DNA from: a virus
IMG/VR virus record: IMGVR_UViG_3300018080_000131
Location: 1-64,000 of that record
Reading direction: 5' to 3' (one strand)
Length of the DNA stretch: 64,000 bases
A program made the position numbers and the translations under genes. The notes beneath the pieces were generated by a model. It did no database searches and was not told the origin of the DNA. It saw nothing but the letters and a program-made list of their open reading frames with translations. This document shows positions 1,723-28,683 of this stretch, piece by piece; position 1 is the stretch's first letter; each line of letters opens with the position of its first letter.

Positions 1723-4707
1723 ATGCAGTTTGCTGATTTTATAAAACTAACAGATAGTTTCAAGTTGTTTCTTGTTGAAATTAATGTTGGTGATGAGATA
1801 GAAGATGCTACTTGGGTACAAGATGTAACTTATACTAATTGTTGGTATACTGAAAATTATGATGTTGGTGTTCCTAATAAAGTAACTGAAGATGGAAGTG
1901 AATATACTGAAAGATTTACTCTTACAGAATTAAATAGTAATGCAAGTGGGTTTTATTATGATTTTGAAAATCAGAAATTATATCTTCATACTTCAGGAAG
2001 TGATGACCCAGGAAGCCAAACTGGTGATGATTATGATTATAAGATTGTTGCTTTTTCTTATAGGTATATTTGTAATAGTCAATTTGGAGATGGTAATGAA
2101 GTTGTATTTGCAAGAGAACAAGAGGCTTTAACAGATGGTAGTTTTGAACTTTGGGATTCTTCTACTGATTTAACTAATTATACAGAAACTACTGCTGGAA
2201 CTTCTACAGTAAATAGAGACAGTAGTGTTGTTTATGCTGGTGGATATTCTGTAAGAATAGATATAGATGGAAGTGGAAACAATGCTAGTATTTTACAAAA
2301 TATTATTTTAAAACCAAGTGGTAAGTGCAAAATAACTTTTAGATACAGGCATGATGGTGCTGGAATTACTTCAGTTTTAAGAATAAAAGATTCAGCTAGT
2401 AATGTTTATCTTGATTCTAGTGGGGATTGGCAAGCTGGAGCTACTAATATATCTTTAGCTAATTCTAATGCTGAATGGACAGAATATGAACTTGAATTTT
2501 ATGCTCATGATGATTATACTAATTACACTATAGAGTTTGAGGGGACAGATGCTAATTCTTCTAATTGGTTTGATGATGCTTCTTTGACAATATATAGAGA
2601 AGATAATTATTATATTCCTTTTCTTTATTCTGGTTCTCTTCCTTCTATTCAACAGGCTGTTGATGATTATTATAATAGTTCTGTAAGAATGGAATTTGGA
2701 ACTATTAGATTTATAAATGATGGTTGGTGGTATTCTCAGATTCAGAATTATTTATGGTATAAGAAAGATATTACTATTAGGTATGGAGCTAAGGGTTCTG
2801 ACTATGAGGATTTTGAAACTATCTTTACAGGTAAAACTAGAAAACCTATGGTTGGTGATGAGTTTGCTTCAATAGATGTTACTGATGTTAAGGCTTTAAT
2901 CTATAAAGAAATACCTGCTACTAAATATTGGATAAGCAATTATGCTAATTTAGAAGCTGGTGCAGAAGGGTTGCCTATTCCTATTGCTTATGGTGAAATA
3001 TATGGAATTATTCCAATTTGTATAGATACTACAGCATATGAATATAAGATTGCTAATCATGAAATAGAAGATATTTTAGATGTTTATAAAGATGGTACTG
3101 CTCTTACTGGTGGTGGTGTTGATTATACAGTTGATTTGGCTAATGGTGAGTTTACTCTTTCTTCTGACCCAGGAGATTCATTAATAACTTGTGATATTCA
3201 AGGGAAGAAGTGTGATATAGAAGATGGAACTTATTCAGATAATGTTGCTGATATTCTTTATGATATTCTTGTTAATTATTCAGATATTGATGCTAGTCAA
3301 ATAGACCTTGAATCATTTCTTGATTTAAAAGGTGGAAGAACTCAATCCCATCAATTGTATATTAATGTTGGAAGGTCTTGTGTTGAGTATGTTAGGCTTC
3401 TTCAGCAATCATCTCTATTTCATGTTATTCCTTTGACTAATGGAAAAATAGGAGCTTTTAGGTATGTAACAGGAACAAGTTCTTCTACTCCTAGATTTGT
3501 TGATGAAGACTATAATGAGTTTTCTATTATTTATGATACTTCCAATATTCATAATAAAATAAAGGTTAGATATAATCATAATCCTGGTGATGAGTCTTAT
3601 GCAAAAACAGTGAGAACTGATAGTGATGTTGAATATAAGTATGATGAAGTTAACACAAAGACTATTACAACAACATTGAAAGATGAGGCTGATGCTGAAA
3701 ATTTAGGTGATTTTTATCTTGATTTATTGAATGAACCACAAAGGAAGGTTAGTGTGGTTCTTCCAACAAGGATATTTAATTTAAGACCTGCTGAAAAAAT
3801 TATATTCAATAAAACAAGATATATGAAGGAAGGAACTGTTACTGTTTTTGATGAAGAACCTTATAGGATATTAGAATTAAATAAAAGTTTGGCTGATGGT
3901 AAGGTTAAGGTTATTGCTATTGAAGACCTTCAATCTGCTGGTGAAGGGTTTTGTGAGGTATGTTATACCTGTCAATCCTGTAATGTGGAGCAAGATGGCT
4001 CATGTTCTTCATGTTATACCTGTGAAAAGTGTGATGCTGGTGAGTGTGATTCTTGTCAATCTTGTTATTATTGTCAAAAGTGTGATGCTGGTGAGTGTTC
4101 AAGTTGTGAGGTTTGTGATAGTTGTGAGGAGTGTGAATCTGGTCAGTGTGGGACTTGTGAAACTTGTGATTCTTGTCAAACCTGTAATACATGCCAGGAT
4201 TGTGATTCTGGGGAATGTGCTACATGCCAAACTTGTGATAGTTGTGAGGAATGTGATAGTTGTCAATTAGGATGTTATACTGGTCAGTGTACTTCTTGTG
4301 AATCTTGTGATTCTTGTGAAGGGTGTAATACATGCCAAAATTGTGATAGTTGCCAAAAATGTTATTCTGGAGAGTGTTCCAGTTGTGAATCTTGTGATTC
4401 TTGTCAAACCTGTAATACATGCCAAAATTGTGATACAGGTGAGTGTTCCAGTTGTCAAAGTTGTGATACATGCCAGGATTGTTATTCTAATGAATGTACT
4501 TTATGTGAATCTTGTGATTCTTGTCAAACCTGTAATACATGCCAAAATTGTGATACAGGAGAATGTTCTAGTTGTCAGGCTTGTAATACCTGTCAAACCT
4601 GTGATAGTTGTGAAAAGTGTAATACTGGTCAATGTACTTCTTGTCAAACCTGTAATACATGCCAAAATTGTTATACCTGTGAGGTATGTGATATTGTCCA
4701 AGGATAA
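1723..4707 (+). CDS. Tail-tip protein with a 250-residue Cys-hexad repeat tail
   Basis: 994 residues. Residues 1-130 are beta-rich. Residues about 136-285 look like a carbohydrate-binding module of the CBM4/9 type (G-S-F-E start, W-T-E-Y-E-L-E-F strand). Residues about 300-740 resemble tail hub/tip proteins. From C744 to the end the protein is a Cys array of about 74 Cys in 251 residues. The unit is the hexad C-[DNY]-[ST]-C-[EQ]-x, interrupted by C-x4-C turns of the type C-D-T-G-E-C. The blocks between turns hold 5, 7 or 9 Cys, always an odd number. It is likely exposed at the tail tip. The next two genes carry the same repeat and a radical SAM/SPASM enzyme, so I infer the array is chemically modified. 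Metal binding or plain disulfides are alternatives. Confidence 0.8.
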   Translation: MQFADFIKLTDSFKLFLVEINVGDEIEDATWVQDVTYTNCWYTENYDVGVPNKVTEDGSEYTERFTLTELNSNASGFYYDFENQKLYLHTSGSDDPGSQTGDDYDYKIVAFSYRYICNSQFGDGNEVVFAREQEALTDGSFELWDSSTDLTNYTETTAGTSTVNRDSSVVYAGGYSVRIDIDGSGNNASILQNIILKPSGKCKITFRYRHDGAGITSVLRIKDSASNVYLDSSGDWQAGATNISLANSNAEWTEYELEFYAHDDYTNYTIEFEGTDANSSNWFDDASLTIYREDNYYIPFLYSGSLPSIQQAVDDYYNSSVRMEFGTIRFINDGWWYSQIQNYLWYKKDITIRYGAKGSDYEDFETIFTGKTRKPMVGDEFASIDVTDVKALIYKEIPATKYWISNYANLEAGAEGLPIPIAYGEIYGIIPICIDTTAYEYKIANHEIEDILDVYKDGTALTGGGVDYTVDLANGEFTLSSDPGDSLITCDIQGKKCDIEDGTYSDNVADILYDILVNYSDIDASQIDLESFLDLKGGRTQSHQLYINVGRSCVEYVRLLQQSSLFHVIPLTNGKIGAFRYVTGTSSSTPRFVDEDYNEFSIIYDTSNIHNKIKVRYNHNPGDESYAKTVRTDSDVEYKYDEVNTKTITTTLKDEADAENLGDFYLDLLNEPQRKVSVVLPTRIFNLRPAEKIIFNKTRYMKEGTVTVFDEEPYRILELNKSLADGKVKVIAIEDLQSAGEGFCEVCYTCQSCNVEQDGSCSSCYTCEKCDAGECDSCQSCYYCQKCDAGECSSCEVCDSCEECESGQCGTCETCDSCQTCNTCQDCDSGECATCQTCDSCEECDSCQLGCYTGQCTSCESCDSCEGCNTCQNCDSCQKCYSGECSSCESCDSCQTCNTCQNCDTGECSSCQSCDTCQDCYSNECTLCESCDSCQTCNTCQNCDTGECSSCQACNTCQTCDSCEKCNTGQCTSCQTCNTCQNCYTCEVCDIVQG

Positions 4708-5535
4708 AAGAGGTAAATAATGGGTTGTGCTGTTTGTGAGTCATGTAATACTTGTGAAGTATGTGATTCTGTAGTTTGTGGAAGCTGTCAAGCTTGTAAT
4801 GCTTGTCAGGCTTGCTATACAGGGGAGTGTTCTACATGCCAGGATTGTGATAGCTGTCAAACAGCTTGTTATACTGGTCAATGTGCTAGTTGTCAGAATT
4901 GTTATACTTGTGAATCTTGTGATTCTGGTCAATGTGCTGTTTGTCAATCCTGTGATTCTTGTGAATCATGTAATACCTGTCAAACTTGTGATTCTTGTGA
5001 GGCTTGCTATACAGGTGAGTGTTCTACTTGTGAAACTTGTTATACTTGTGAAAAATGTGATGCTTGTCAAGTATGTGAAGCTGGTCAGTGTGCATCTTGT
5101 CAAACTTGTGTAGCTTGTGAAACCTGTGATAGTTGTGAAGGGTGTAATGTGTGTCAATCCTGTAATGCTTGTGAAGCTTGTTATACTGGTCAGTGTCCAA
5201 GTTGTCAATCCTGTGTAAGTTGTCAAACCTGTGATAGTTGTGAAACATCTTGTTATACTGGTCAGTGTTCATCCTGTCAGGTATGTGATAGTTGTCAGGA
5301 TTGTGTGGTAAAACAATGTGCTAGTTGTCAATCCTGTGATGCTTGTGAGTCATGTAATACATGCCAAAATTGTGATTCTTGTGAAGCTTGTTATACTGGT
5401 CAGTGTGCTACATGCCAGGATTGTAATGCTTGTCAAACCTGTGATAGCTGTCAAACAGCTTGTTATACTGGTCAGTGTGTTAATTGTCAAGTATGTGATG
5501 ATTGTCAGGAATGTGATACCTGTCAAAATTCTTAT
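3952..5535 (+). repeat. Cys-codon 18-bp repeat array spanning two genes
   Basis: Near-continuous DNA array of an 18-bp unit (two TGT codons spaced 9 bp apart) running through the 3' end of the tail-tip gene and all of the next gene, broken only by the 13-bp gap at 4707-4720. Several longer blocks are repeated almost exactly, for example the segment encoding DSCQTCNTCQNC near 4395, 4515 and 4645. Such an array can expand or contract by slippage or recombination. No mutational event is visible in a single sequence. Confidence 0.9.
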
Positions 5536-5550
5536 ATAATAGAACCATAA
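4720..5550 (+). CDS. Free-standing Cys-hexad repeat protein
   Basis: 276 residues with about 81 Cys (roughly 29 percent). After MGC the whole protein is the hexad C-[DNYVA]-x-C-[EQ]-x with C-x4-C turns, most often C-Y-T-G-Q-C. Cys counts per block between turns are 5, 5, 5, 5, 9, 7, 11, 7, 5, 9, 7 and a final 6. There is no signal peptide, and only QNSYIIEP follows the last Cys. The start has AGAGG upstream at ordinary spacing. It lies 12 bp after the tail-tip gene, which ends in the same repeat, and 16 bp before the radical SAM gene, so the three are probably co-translated. It may be a secondary tail appendage or a substrate of the SPASM enzyme. I know of no named family for it. Confidence 0.85.
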   Translation: MGCAVCESCNTCEVCDSVVCGSCQACNACQACYTGECSTCQDCDSCQTACYTGQCASCQNCYTCESCDSGQCAVCQSCDSCESCNTCQTCDSCEACYTGECSTCETCYTCEKCDACQVCEAGQCASCQTCVACETCDSCEGCNVCQSCNACEACYTGQCPSCQSCVSCQTCDSCETSCYTGQCSSCQVCDSCQDCVVKQCASCQSCDACESCNTCQNCDSCEACYTGQCATCQDCNACQTCDSCQTACYTGQCVNCQVCDDCQECDTCQNSYIIEP

Positions 5551-5566
5551 TAGGAGAAAATATAAA

Positions 5567-7066
5567 ATGAAAGAATGTGAAACTTGTGAAAGTTGTTATA
5601 CTTGTGAAAAAAGTGTTATTTCAAGTATAACAAAAGAACAATTAGATGAAGCAAAAAAGAAAGGTGGTATTCCTTCTGAATGGTTGAGAGATTTAGATTG
5701 TGAAAACTGTTTTTCTTGTCAGAAGTGTGATACAAGTCAAGAAGTTGACAAATGTGGAAACTGCTATGCTTGTCAGAAGTGTGATACTCACCAAGGAAAT
5801 GCTGGTGATGGGTTAAATAATTGTGAAAATTGTTTCTCTTGTCAGAAGTGTGTTTCTCAGCAAGCTAATTGTGAAAATTGCTATACCTGTCAGGTTGGTG
5901 ATGTTTCTAATGATTCTTGTAAAGGTGGTGTTTGTAAGGTAAAGAAGGATGAGGATTATGTTAATAATATAACCTATTTCTTATTTCCAACAAATAATTG
6001 TAACTTGAGATGTACTTATTGTTATGCTACAAAAACTCCTAAAGAAATGGATGCTGAAACCTTAGCTCAGGCTGGAGAATTTATACTTGGTCCAGAGGAA
6101 GAGAGGAATCCTGGGAGAAGGGTTAATATTCAGTTTTTTGGTGGAGAACCTATGTTGAAATGGAATATGCTAACTACATTTATTGATTGGATGAATGAGG
6201 AAGCAAGAAAAAGATTAGGAAGAAAGATTAATTGGGGTATGACCACAAATGGTACTCTTTTAAATGAAGAAAGAATTAAGTGGATGAAGGAGCATAATTT
6301 AAGACCTTTATTGAGTGTTGATGGTAGAAAGGAAACTCATAATAAGCATAGGATTTATGCTAATGGAAGAGGTTCTTTTGATGATATTCCTTTTGATACT
6401 TTTTTGAAATATTTTCCTAATCCAGAATTAAGACCAACAATTCTTCCTGATACTGTAGAAGGTTGGATTGAAGATTTGTATTGGTTTCATTCTAAGGGAT
6501 GTTATAATGTTGCTACAGAGGTTGCTTATGAGGCTGATTGGGATGATGAGGCTATGGCTAAGGCTTGGAGAACTTATGATAAGATGGGAGATATTTATAT
6601 TCAATTTAGGAAAGCTGGGAAGAAAGATTTTTGGATGAAGTTTATAATGGATGGTTTGAATACTTTAGGTATAGAAAGACAAACAGGAACAGTATGTGGA
6701 ATTGCAAGAAATACTGTAGCCATTGATGCTCATGGTTGGCTTTATGCTTGTCAGAGATATGCTGATTTTAATAATCCTGATTTGAAGATTGGAGATATTT
6801 GGGAAGGTTGGGATTATGACAAGTTGAAGGAATGGAGAAGTTTGAGAAGAGAACATATGTATCCTGACCCAAGAAGTGGTTTTGATTGTGAAACTTGTCC
6901 TGCTAGATGGAAATGCAGAGGTGGTTGTAATGCTATGAATTATCAATGTAATAATGATAGAAAAATGATATTGGAAAATCATTGTAAGTTTCAGAGAATG
7001 TGGGCTTTAATAACATTAAGAGTGTTGTCAGCAACAGGAGAGTTACATAGGAAAATTAGAAGATAA
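5567..7066 (+). CDS. Radical SAM/SPASM peptide-maturase-like enzyme with N-terminal Cys repeats
   Basis: 499 residues. Residues 1-135 carry about 21 Cys in repeats of the form C-E-N-C-F-S-C-Q-K-C, related to the repeats of the two preceding proteins. The radical SAM motif CNLRCTYC (C145, C149, C152) binds the 4Fe-4S cluster that cleaves S-adenosylmethionine. FFGGEP at about 189-194 is the glycine-rich SAM motif. The C-terminal SPASM region has C377, C395, C441, C444, C450 and C454 (C-x2-C-x5-C-x3-C), which bind auxiliary clusters. Relatives include anaerobic sulfatase maturases and sactipeptide, ranthipeptide and QhpD-type enzymes that form thioethers on Cys. I infer that it modifies the Cys arrays of its neighbours, perhaps also its own. 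Such enzymes are oxygen-sensitive. Confidence 0.88.
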   Translation: MKECETCESCYTCEKSVISSITKEQLDEAKKKGGIPSEWLRDLDCENCFSCQKCDTSQEVDKCGNCYACQKCDTHQGNAGDGLNNCENCFSCQKCVSQQANCENCYTCQVGDVSNDSCKGGVCKVKKDEDYVNNITYFLFPTNNCNLRCTYCYATKTPKEMDAETLAQAGEFILGPEEERNPGRRVNIQFFGGEPMLKWNMLTTFIDWMNEEARKRLGRKINWGMTTNGTLLNEERIKWMKEHNLRPLLSVDGRKETHNKHRIYANGRGSFDDIPFDTFLKYFPNPELRPTILPDTVEGWIEDLYWFHSKGCYNVATEVAYEADWDDEAMAKAWRTYDKMGDIYIQFRKAGKKDFWMKFIMDGLNTLGIERQTGTVCGIARNTVAIDAHGWLYACQRYADFNNPDLKIGDIWEGWDYDKLKEWRSLRREHMYPDPRSGFDCETCPARWKCRGGCNAMNYQCNNDRKMILENHCKFQRMWALITLRVLSATGELHRKIRR

Positions 7067-8463
7067 TGGATTTTATAACTAGTGAAGAGTATGAGAATAC
7101 TGTAAGAAATATTCTCAAAAGACTTGATGGAAAGATTGATAAATCAGGTGGTAGTATATCTGGTGATGTAGATATTACTGGAACATTAAGTATTAAATCT
7201 CAAAATGAATTAAGATTCTATGATAATGGAAATTATGTAGGGTTTGAAGCTCCTGCTTTATCTGGGAATCAGATTTGGGTTCTTCCTGATGCAGATGGAG
7301 GTGCTAATGAGGCTTTAGGCACAGATGGTGGTGGAAATCTGATATGGAGAAACCATGATGAACTTGCTGGGTATGTTGCTGATGAGCATATTGATTGGAC
7401 AAATGCTACTGATAATTTAAGCACAAGTGGAAATATATTTACAACTGGTGGTCATTACTATGCTCCAAATGATGCTAAAATTTATTTTAGAGATGTTGGT
7501 GATACTGGCTACATAAGAGCTTTAAATGTTAATACTAATGACCATACAACATTAAATGCTAGTTCTGGTAAAGATATAATTTTTATGGAGAATGTTAGTG
7601 CTAAGATGAGATTAGTTAGTGGGGATTTTGGAATAGGTACAAATACTCCTGCTACAGTTGCTTCTGCTTCTCTTGGTGGTACAGTTCTTCATGTTTTAGA
7701 TAGTAGTGCTGATGGTAGATTGGTTGCTTCAGGTGCTACAGGAGCTAATTTAAATCTTGTTGATACTGGTGGTGGCTCTAATGATAAATGGTTACAGCTA
7801 GATGTTGATGGTGGTATTGGAAAATTTGCTTCTGTTGCTGATGCTGGTACAAGTTTTGTATCTAATAATATTCTTGTTATGGATTTAGGAAATGGTAATG
7901 TTGGGATAGGTACAAATACTCCAGGTGATGAGCTTGAGGTTAATGGCAATATAATGGCTAATGGGATAGGGTTGGGGAAATCTCCTACTCAGTTAATTGA
8001 TATGCAAGCTGAGAGTGCTTTATGCCCTATTTATATGACAGCTATAACCTCAACTAGCCAATGGCAATCTCCTCAAATTTTAACAAGAAGAGCAAGAGGA
8101 ACTGTTGGCTCTATATCTGCTGTTGCAGATGGAGATTTACTTTATAGGAATGATATATATGCCTATGATGGAAGTGATTATGTCTTAGCTGGTCATATAA
8201 GATGCCAAATGCAAGATGACCCAACAGATGTAGGTAATATTACACCATGTTCTCTTGGTTTTGCTGTTCAAGACTCCTCGGGTAATTTAAGAATAGCTAC
8301 TCAATTTGGTGAGTATTTTTATCTTCAACATGGTGTTCTTGCTATGGCAGAAACTACAACTCCTTCTGCTATTGCAAGAGTTGGAAAATTGTATACAAAG
8401 AGTGATAATAAACTTTATTTCCAGGATGGTGGTGGTACTGAACATGAAATGGCTTATGCATAA
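7066..8463 (+). CDS. Tail fibre or tail-tip appendage protein
   Basis: 465 residues, starting on the last base of the radical SAM gene's stop codon. The N-terminus has SGGSISGDVDITGTLSI, a pattern common at fibre shaft starts. The motif GIGTNTP occurs twice (about residues 186 and 281), and the sequence is Gly/Asp/Asn-rich and beta-prone, as in trimeric fibres. The C-terminal part (ARVGKLYTKSDNKLYFQDG) resembles phage fibre tips. No intramolecular chaperone domain is evident. The role is inferred as host receptor binding or structural fibre. One of the six CpG dinucleotides of the window is at 8279. Confidence 0.7.
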   Translation: MDFITSEEYENTVRNILKRLDGKIDKSGGSISGDVDITGTLSIKSQNELRFYDNGNYVGFEAPALSGNQIWVLPDADGGANEALGTDGGGNLIWRNHDELAGYVADEHIDWTNATDNLSTSGNIFTTGGHYYAPNDAKIYFRDVGDTGYIRALNVNTNDHTTLNASSGKDIIFMENVSAKMRLVSGDFGIGTNTPATVASASLGGTVLHVLDSSADGRLVASGATGANLNLVDTGGGSNDKWLQLDVDGGIGKFASVADAGTSFVSNNILVMDLGNGNVGIGTNTPGDELEVNGNIMANGIGLGKSPTQLIDMQAESALCPIYMTAITSTSQWQSPQILTRRARGTVGSISAVADGDLLYRNDIYAYDGSDYVLAGHIRCQMQDDPTDVGNITPCSLGFAVQDSSGNLRIATQFGEYFYLQHGVLAMAETTTPSAIARVGKLYTKSDNKLYFQDGGGTEHEMAYA

Positions 8464-27690: not shown

Positions 27691-28683
27691 ATGAATAAAT
27701 ATATAGGTATGTATTCTTTTGATGCTGAACAGCAATCAAGAAGAAAGAAAAATAAAAAGAAACAGTTTCCTAATTTAGCATTAATGAAATTATCAACATA
27801 TTTTAAAAATAAAGATTATAGAGTTGAGCTTTATAATGAAGAGAAAGATAAAAATGGTTATTATGATAAAGTTTTTGTAAGTGTTGTGTTTGATTGGTCA
27901 TTAAAAAAATTACCAAAAAATATTCCTAGTCATTGGGAAGTTGGTGGTTATGCTTATGATATTAATAAAAAATTACCTATTAATGCTGAACATTTAGTTC
28001 CAGATTATGATTTATTTGATTGTGATTCTTATTATGGTTTTACAACAAGAGGGTGTTTTAGAAATTGCTCATTTTGTTTTGTGCCAAAAGCAGAAGGAAA
28101 GTTTAGGAGATATGTTGAAGATATTAATGAATTTTGTCCATCTGATAAAGGATTTACAAAAATAACATTACTTGATAATAATATATTATATGATAAAGAA
28201 CATTTCATTAATATATCAAATCAGATTATAGATAAAAATTTGTTAGTTGATTTTAATCAAGGCTTGGACCATAGATTGGTATGTGATGATGATATATTAA
28301 ATATTTTAACCAAATTGAAACATAGAGAATATAGATTTTCATTTGATTTTATTGAATATAAAAATAATGTTATTAAAACTATTGAGTGTTTAAAAAAACA
28401 TGGATTAAAGAAAAATTTTTGGTATGTTTTAGTTGGGTATAATACAACAATAGAAGAGGATTTAGAAAGATTAAAAATTTTAAGAGATTATAAGCAGGTT
28501 GTTTATGTTCAAAGATATAATAAAAGTAAAGATAGATTGTTAATACCTTTAGCTCAATGGGCTAATCAACCTTGGATTTTTTATAGTTATACATGGAATG
28601 ATTTTATTACTCATCCAAGTAAAGAAAGATACAGAAAATTATATGAAGAAAATAATTTACCATTAAGTTTAGAATCTATATAA
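27691..28683 (+). CDS. Radical SAM enzyme (second in window)
   Basis: 330 residues. The motif GCFRNCSFC (C122, C126, C129) preceded by YGFTTR and followed by VPKAEGKFR fits a family of radical SAM proteins common in bacteria and phages. DFNQGLDHRL near residue 190 is another hallmark of that family. The N-terminal 115 residues may be a degenerate B12-binding-like domain. No SPASM cysteines are visible. It starts 10 bp after the ParB-like gene and shares its AT-rich composition. Substrate unknown. Confidence 0.75.
   Translation: MNKYIGMYSFDAEQQSRRKKNKKKQFPNLALMKLSTYFKNKDYRVELYNEEKDKNGYYDKVFVSVVFDWSLKKLPKNIPSHWEVGGYAYDINKKLPINAEHLVPDYDLFDCDSYYGFTTRGCFRNCSFCFVPKAEGKFRRYVEDINEFCPSDKGFTKITLLDNNILYDKEHFINISNQIIDKNLLVDFNQGLDHRLVCDDDILNILTKLKHREYRFSFDFIEYKNNVIKTIECLKKHGLKKNFWYVLVGYNTTIEEDLERLKILRDYKQVVYVQRYNKSKDRLLIPLAQWANQPWIFYSYTWNDFITHPSKERYRKLYEENNLPLSLESI

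Follow-up and report, generated by a model that had tools for sequence, protein, structure and literature searches.

We analysed a 64,000-base stretch of viral DNA (the window), comprising bases 1-64,000 of the 101,074-base IMG/VR record IMGVR_UViG_3300018080_000131, and found near its start three consecutive plus-strand genes that encode two proteins with dense cysteine arrays and a radical S-adenosylmethionine (SAM) enzyme of the SPASM type. The first gene (1723-4707) encodes a protein of 994 amino acids (aa), of which residues 1-743 (1723-3951) form a predicted tail-tip (baseplate) hub domain and the C-terminal 251 residues (3952-4704), 74 of them Cys, form the first array. The second (4720-5550) encodes 276 aa with 81 Cys and consists of the hub array's repeat from end to end; it has its own start codon, 12 bases past the hub stop codon, and a purine-rich stretch upstream of that start. 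The third (5567-7066) encodes the 499-aa enzyme. An earlier note on this DNA, made from the letters alone, had marked the span 3952-7066; the three genes lie where it put them, and the hub array begins exactly at 3952 (residue 744 of 994). The order of array-bearing hub, array protein and enzyme is kept in relatives, in which the hub sequence is conserved and the array length variable.

Cysteine arrays and the neighbouring enzyme

The repeat of both window arrays reads C-[DNY]-x-C-[EQ]-x and is interrupted by turns of the form C-x-x-G-[EQ]-C. Successive Cys are mostly three residues apart (127 times), with spacings of five (21 times), four (4 times) and eight (once) making up the rest, and the residue that follows a Cys alternates between Glu/Gln and another residue in 124 of 127 neighbouring pairs. 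The earlier note had regarded odd numbers of Cys between C-x4-C turns as a clue; most runs are indeed odd (5, 7, 9 or 11), while some hold four or six Cys, namely a first run of four before the spacing of eight, a second run of four, and runs of four or six at C-x3-C steps. With one particular half of the hexad replaced at every turn, the two-Cys alternation is enough to produce odd counts, and they were dropped as a separate clue. Among the Cys without a following Glu/Gln, 83 of 85 carry Glu/Gln at position +4, and at the C-x4-C turns, where the next Cys is shifted by two places, Glu/Gln still occupies +4 in 18 of 19 cases; the register thus follows the Cys-to-Glu/Gln spacing rather than the Cys-to-Cys spacing.

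Arrays of at least seven Cys were absent from 502 kb of other viral sequence, so the window arrays lie far beyond chance. Across seven related hub proteins, many Cys columns of the array do not vary, whereas array length does. BLAST with the array protein gave no matches in phage records, where low-complexity filtering perhaps masks the array. The earlier note pictured extended strands with Cys on both faces; AlphaFold modelling of the arrays gave low confidence (predicted local distance difference test, pLDDT, of 46 for the array protein and about 25 for the hub array), which does not establish that geometry, and we therefore claim none.

The adjacent gene encodes a radical SAM protein by motif and by profile: its cluster motif C145NLRCTYC152 (5999-6022) has the form C145-x3-C149-x2-C152, and the Pfam domain PF04055 is matched with 51.8 bits (cut-off 29.5). 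The SPASM segment from C377 to C473 (6695-6985), with two auxiliary cluster sites, is complete in its seven Cys (C377-x12-G-x4-C395, C441-x2-C444-x5-C450-x3-C454 and C473), which are invariant or nearly so across 25 diverse phage enzymes. Residues 1-125 (5567-5941) contain 21 further Cys in a related repeat, and the CxxxCxxC motif, SPASM cysteines and about 21 extra N-terminal Cys reported by the earlier note are all present. This N-terminal extension is found in the window's own enzyme clade (L138-L144, L039, L221, L229 and L235) and is absent from nearly all other phage enzymes examined; it may be a built-in substrate or docking piece.

The best NCBIfam match of the enzyme is PapB, the maturase of the ranthipeptide freyrasin (NF047865), with 213.4 bits over residues 139-465, and two other enzymes (L138 and L171) score 230 and 280.7 bits against the same family, all below its cut-off of 340. 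Next in the ranking come the SCIFF (TIGR03974, 145.6 bits against a cut-off of 425), Nif11, QhpD (TIGR03906, 139.7 against 453) and CXXX-repeat (TIGR04115, 114.1 against 350) maturases, each match far under its cut-off. Since all curated family scores fall below their cut-offs, the enzyme, as classed by these profiles, is of the peptide-maturase type and outside the named families. Its best solved relative is 5wgg_A (E 2e-34), the SCIFF maturase ScfB/CteB, a SPASM enzyme that forms Cys thioethers; SCIFF peptides accompany the bacterial relatives, whereas none was found among the genes neighbouring the window enzyme. QhpD joins Cys to acidic side chains within a full-size protein subunit rather than a peptide product, but there the links are few, lie in one enzyme subunit instead of a repeat array, and belong to bacteria rather than viruses. 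CXXX-repeat maturases resemble the window enzyme in being predicted to act on regular Cys-repeat proteins, while the window repeat, C-x-x-C-[EQ]-x, is a different one. A related pair (L130) has a Tat-signal-like N-terminus and looks bacterial, and it was set aside as an ordinary bacterial CXXX-repeat system.

Linkage of arrays and enzymes across viruses

A search of IMG/VR with the single enzyme sequence found no close relatives, so an alignment-based search was required; an alignment of five enzymes retrieved 384 relatives, of which the best 80 were used for the enzyme-side counts. An unrestricted scan for (Cxx)7 runs was abandoned, as it returned mostly out-of-frame or antisense readings of collagen-like repeats. 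Because of these false runs, later counts demanded that an array lie in the longest frame open at that place, with at least seven Cys and one to four residues between them. By this strict rule, an array lies within 2.5 kb of the enzyme in 46 of the best 80 viral loci, against none in the 502 kb of background, and all 57 arrays near viral enzymes are on the enzyme's strand. At several of the loci that do not pass it, Cys-rich neighbours of other kinds are present. Around the nearest enzymes in bacterial genomes, in contrast, SCIFF peptides are neighbours in 51 of 80 cases and arrays in only three (Fisher p 8e-15 for arrays beside viral versus bacterial enzymes), which indicates that arrays beside these enzymes are mainly viral. 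Four loci (L003, L004, L005 and L009) were rejected because their neighbours are SCIFF peptides of ordinary bacterial systems. One of the three bacterial-search loci with arrays, a 10-kb contig binned as a Bathyarchaeota archaeon (L450 3452-4534), has three Cys-array frames together with the enzyme and possibly belongs to an archaeal virus.

The linkage also holds when approached from the array side, by a search with two DNA patterns (the hexad and C-[EQ]-x-x repeats) that was blind to the enzyme and from which non-credible frames were discarded. Of 26 contigs with tail-type arrays, each searched over its whole length, 17 carry the enzyme, including 15 of the 18 longer than 15 kb, as compared to one of 49 control contigs and none of the 11 controls with a different (Cxx)n protein (Fisher p 2e-9; array and control contigs were unmatched for size or habitat). 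Among the short contigs without a full enzyme, L221 is cut off within the first part of the enzyme gene, and L242 stops about 175 bases past the array gene. The conserved co-occurrence that the earlier note had suggested looking for is therefore found in both directions, and homologous arrays regularly standing without an enzyme were sought among the 26 array contigs and not found. The arrangement is not peculiar to this phage: it occurs widely among viruses, in which at least three array chemistries can be told apart, and cultured jumbo phages, SPN3US among them, have it too.

Two kinds of locus fall outside these pairs. Six contigs (L277, L279, L282, L259, L283 and L286) encode proteins in which a short N-terminal part, often with WVDxxNNxW, is followed by dense (Cxx)n, and they have no radical SAM gene of this type; the (Cxx)n proteins of L277, L279, L282, L283 and others, having no Glu/Gln grammar, tail domain or enzyme, were rejected as members of the array system. 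Campylobacter phage CP220 (L007 2581-7062) has a related enzyme, with two radical SAM genes near its baseplate genes and no array within 6 kb.

Arrays and enzymes also vary together. The arrays were sorted by sequence into C-[EQ], C-[ST]-G-x-C and C-x-C types, which differ chiefly in the residue directly after the Cys (Glu/Gln, Thr/Ser, or Thr/Asp/Asn). On a quick maximum-likelihood tree of 41 enzymes, from which near-copies were removed and in which some branches are long, array type changes four times (minimum two), while the mean after shuffling was 15.1 and none of 200 shuffles was that low. The C-[ST]-G enzymes all fall into a single clade (support 97), in which the enzyme of L196, beside a C-[ST]-G-x-C array, passes the TIGR04115 cut-off (444.6 against 350). 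Such a match of array type to enzyme clade would be expected if the enzymes act on the arrays. Arrays with Cys at every second residue (CTCTCTCTC; CNCDYACTC) occur at L164, L167, L176, L177 (about 5880-5955) and L215 (3905-4792) with enzyme clades of their own and would be a distinct chemistry.

Proposed cross-linking and its alternatives

The tight linkage and shared divergence make it very likely that the arrays are the substrate of the enzyme, with the array-only protein proposed as a second substrate beside the hub. We propose that a protein-stitching system for the tail tip is encoded by the phage itself. In this system the hub would carry a Cys array at its distal end, the second protein would be a free-standing array, and the adjacent radical SAM/SPASM enzyme would recognise both inside the cytoplasm, which is reducing and does not allow disulfides. 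In each hexad the enzyme would join one Cys sulfur to the side chain of the Glu/Gln at +4 (C-x-x-C-[EQ], or C-x-x-G-[EQ] at the turns), giving about 40 thioethers in the hub array and about 45 in the array protein. Small thioether rings would then follow one another like the rungs of a long ladder, and the product could serve as a needle or spike below the hub that is stiff and resists proteases. Because thioethers form without an oxidising compartment, they would suit a particle assembled in the cytoplasm. In other phages, the same arrangement would be applied to other virion-type proteins, and sister enzymes would fit C-[ST]-G-x-C and C-x-C arrays. Taken as a whole, this account appears likely to us. 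Considered by themselves, the predicted thioether chemistry is fairly probable, the choice of Glu/Gln at +4 as acceptor is about evenly balanced, and the mechanical role of the arrays could go either way.

The choice of acceptor leans on the likeness to PapB, which, in Cys-X3-Asp/Glu motifs, links Cys to Asp at the beta carbon or to Glu at the gamma carbon, tolerates 0-6 intervening residues and makes both in-line and nested links (PMC9413430). The Cys-X3-acidic spacing of its motifs equals the Cys-to-Glu/Gln spacing of the arrays, so that the 83 of 85 eligible Cys described above have a PapB-type substrate spacing, with a mixture of Glu and Gln as acceptor. The substrate of PapB is a short leader peptide with six motifs, whereas here it would be a virion-type protein with about 40.

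Several observations weigh against the proposed cross-linking. About half of the supposed +4 acceptors in the window arrays are Gln, and Gln acceptors for PapB are not reported in PMC9413430. Where Glu/Gln directly follows a Cys, as it does for the remaining half of the Cys, position +4 is occupied by Asp, Asn, Tyr or Val, and no clear partner is seen; in arrays of the larger C-[EQ]-x-x-C class, the next Glu/Gln stands at 5, not 4. The window enzyme falls under the cut-off of every curated peptide-maturase family, that of PapB included, and it differs from PapB in its N-terminal Cys repeat; the N-terminal RRE leader-binding domain of ranthipeptide and sactipeptide maturases, usual in relatives, was not recognised in it, no dedicated RRE search having been made. 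Finally, 34 of the 80 viral enzyme loci have no array under the strict rule, and three array contigs longer than 15 kb (those of L261, L341 and L429), which are fragments, have no enzyme.

As an alternative, the enzyme might modify the arrays in another way, by sactionine alpha-carbon thioethers to Ser/Thr, by links to other residues, by epimerisation or by another radical edit. Ser/Thr occupy 62-68% of the +2 positions in the arrays, the C-[ST]-G-x-C class has Thr/Ser at +1 in place of Glu/Gln, and the second-best families, the SCIFF and Nif11 maturases, act on Thr or other residues. However, Glu/Gln is the most strictly placed non-Cys residue, its +4 position being held across turns, and PapB, the best family match, uses Asp/Glu; we consider a modification of this kind unlikely, though it deserves to be kept in mind.

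It is improbable that the arrays contain disulfides or free thiols while the neighbouring enzyme serves another substrate. That Cys repeats can exist alone is illustrated by the other viral (Cxx)n proteins, none of whose 11 contigs carries such an enzyme; those repeats, however, have neither tail domains nor the Glu/Gln grammar, and the two-way linkage and the co-divergence of enzyme and array type argue for a functional pairing. Still less probable is the binding of iron-sulfur clusters, zinc or another metal by the arrays, as in a metal-laden spike or electron relay, with the enzyme or its Cys-rich N-terminus loading or using the metal. CxxC pairs are common metal ligands and the enzyme bears the arrays' repeat too, but family library scans recognised no ferredoxin or zinc-finger family in the arrays, the alternating Glu/Gln would not be explained, and peptides are what the SPASM relatives act on. 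It is very hard to credit that the array-only protein is released as a peptide, such as an antibacterial or exclusion factor, and that the hub array derives from it as a copy: small array-only proteins are common beside the enzyme and most of its known relatives make peptides with such roles, yet no transporter or protease gene is seen beside them, and the fusion of arrays to hub, fibre-like, Ig-like decoration and amidase-like proteins fits virion parts.

Virion context and significance of the predicted cross-links

Among sequence families, the hub protein matches phrog_8917 alone, whose function is unknown, and its sequence profile found no match in the PDB; it is 28-54% identical across six relatives. 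An AlphaFold model made with seven relatives is weak (pLDDT 43), and Foldseek on this low-confidence model placed the T5 tail tip pb3 first (7zhj_b, E 1.1e-9), followed by the NF5 tail-associated lysin and by tip or baseplate proteins of lambda, T1 and JBD30, with low TM-scores of about 0.2. Given these scores, the hub call rests on the agreement among the Foldseek matches and on gene order rather than on the model itself; a hub fold and a gene position after the tape measure are shared with T5 pb3 and lambda gpJ, consistent with the tail-tip protein named in the earlier note. Conventional tip or fibre domains, rather than Cys arrays, form the ends of the T5 and lambda hubs, and we know of no modifying enzyme beside their genes. 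The central fibre of T5 is attached at the distal end of the tail-tip hub, and the window array, judged from the model matches, most likely leaves the distal end of its hub.

The tail module at the window start comprises six genes, all on the plus strand. The C-terminal part of a tape measure protein (1-528), in a reading frame already open at the window start, is followed by a conserved 368-aa tail protein (535-1641; phrog_8610, function unknown), which lies between tape measure and hub and is equivalently placed in L138-L142, L039, L221, L235 and L242. Downstream of the enzyme, and overlapping its stop codon, lies a gene for a 465-aa protein (7066-8463) that may be fibre-like by its position; a gene in a similar position is found in L139 and L142. 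Gene order around the tape measure gene is also the same in relatives L139, L141 and L142. At the far end of the 101,074-base record, a 1069-aa frame is open at the record end (L137 14868-18074), and the split of the tape measure gene over both ends suggests a circularly permuted, nearly complete genome. The same phage encodes two more radical SAM-like proteins, one in the window (27691-28683) and one at L137 1648-3090, the latter within a block of sugar- or surface-modification-like genes.

Beyond the hubs of the window clade, the array carriers include many small proteins with N-termini of unknown type, an RCC1-repeat protein with a tail-protein match (L188), an Ig-domain protein matching Hoc-like head decoration (L145) and an amidase-like protein (L155). 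The pair is also carried by the cultured phages Erwinia ChrisDB and Phobos, Salmonella SPN3US, E. coli EC001 and Cronobacter CR5, each of which has two arrays of 20-21 Cys and two radical SAM genes adjoining virion structural genes, while the code-15 gut phage phAss-1 carries a distant array-enzyme pair. Arrays of the jumbo phages lie at 5088-5477 in ChrisDB (L135), 5832-6230 in SPN3US (L530), 5237-5689 in CR5 (L531) and 5462-6265 in Phobos (L532); in EC001 (MN445185) they lie at about 142,230-143,040, with the enzymes at 138,838-141,073. Such arrays are poor in Lys/Arg. In several jumbo phage records the array genes are unannotated or overlapped by opposite-strand hypothetical genes, and proteome search databases that rely on these annotations would therefore lack their proteins. 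For SPN3US, gp168 (188 kDa), which we identify with the array neighbour from its gene length and position, is reported to be a tail protein that is expected to be essential; the main text of the published virion proteome makes no mention of array proteins or enzymes under the expected gene numbers. The Dickeya phages AD1 and Y3, which are "hairy" myoviruses, share a radical SAM gene (PMC6143709).

The open-access full-text literature gave no description of a phage system of this type, and the earlier note knew of none either. To our knowledge, such chemistry on virion proteins at this scale and breadth is undescribed, while the enzyme type and the likely chemistry belong to a known kind. We lean towards the view that there is a widespread class of viral structural proteins to which virus-encoded radical enzymes add cross-links, in which thioether-laddered spikes, fibres and decorations occur across many tailed-phage lineages, enzyme clades are matched to array chemistries, and the enzyme of one clade carries, and perhaps stitches, a copy of the array. 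Since the pair is carried by cultured phages, the idea is open to direct testing.

Thioethers made by radical SAM enzymes are known in small peptide products and in one enzyme subunit; here such chemistry apparently produces virion building material with dozens of links per chain. If true, this would account for covalent stiffening of tail tips in particles whose assembly takes place in a reducing and often anoxic cytoplasm, with no need for disulfides. A set of phage radical SAM genes that lack an explanation, among them those of SPN3US-like jumbo phages, would gain a function, as would the Cys-rich phage families phrog_15341 and phrog_6085.

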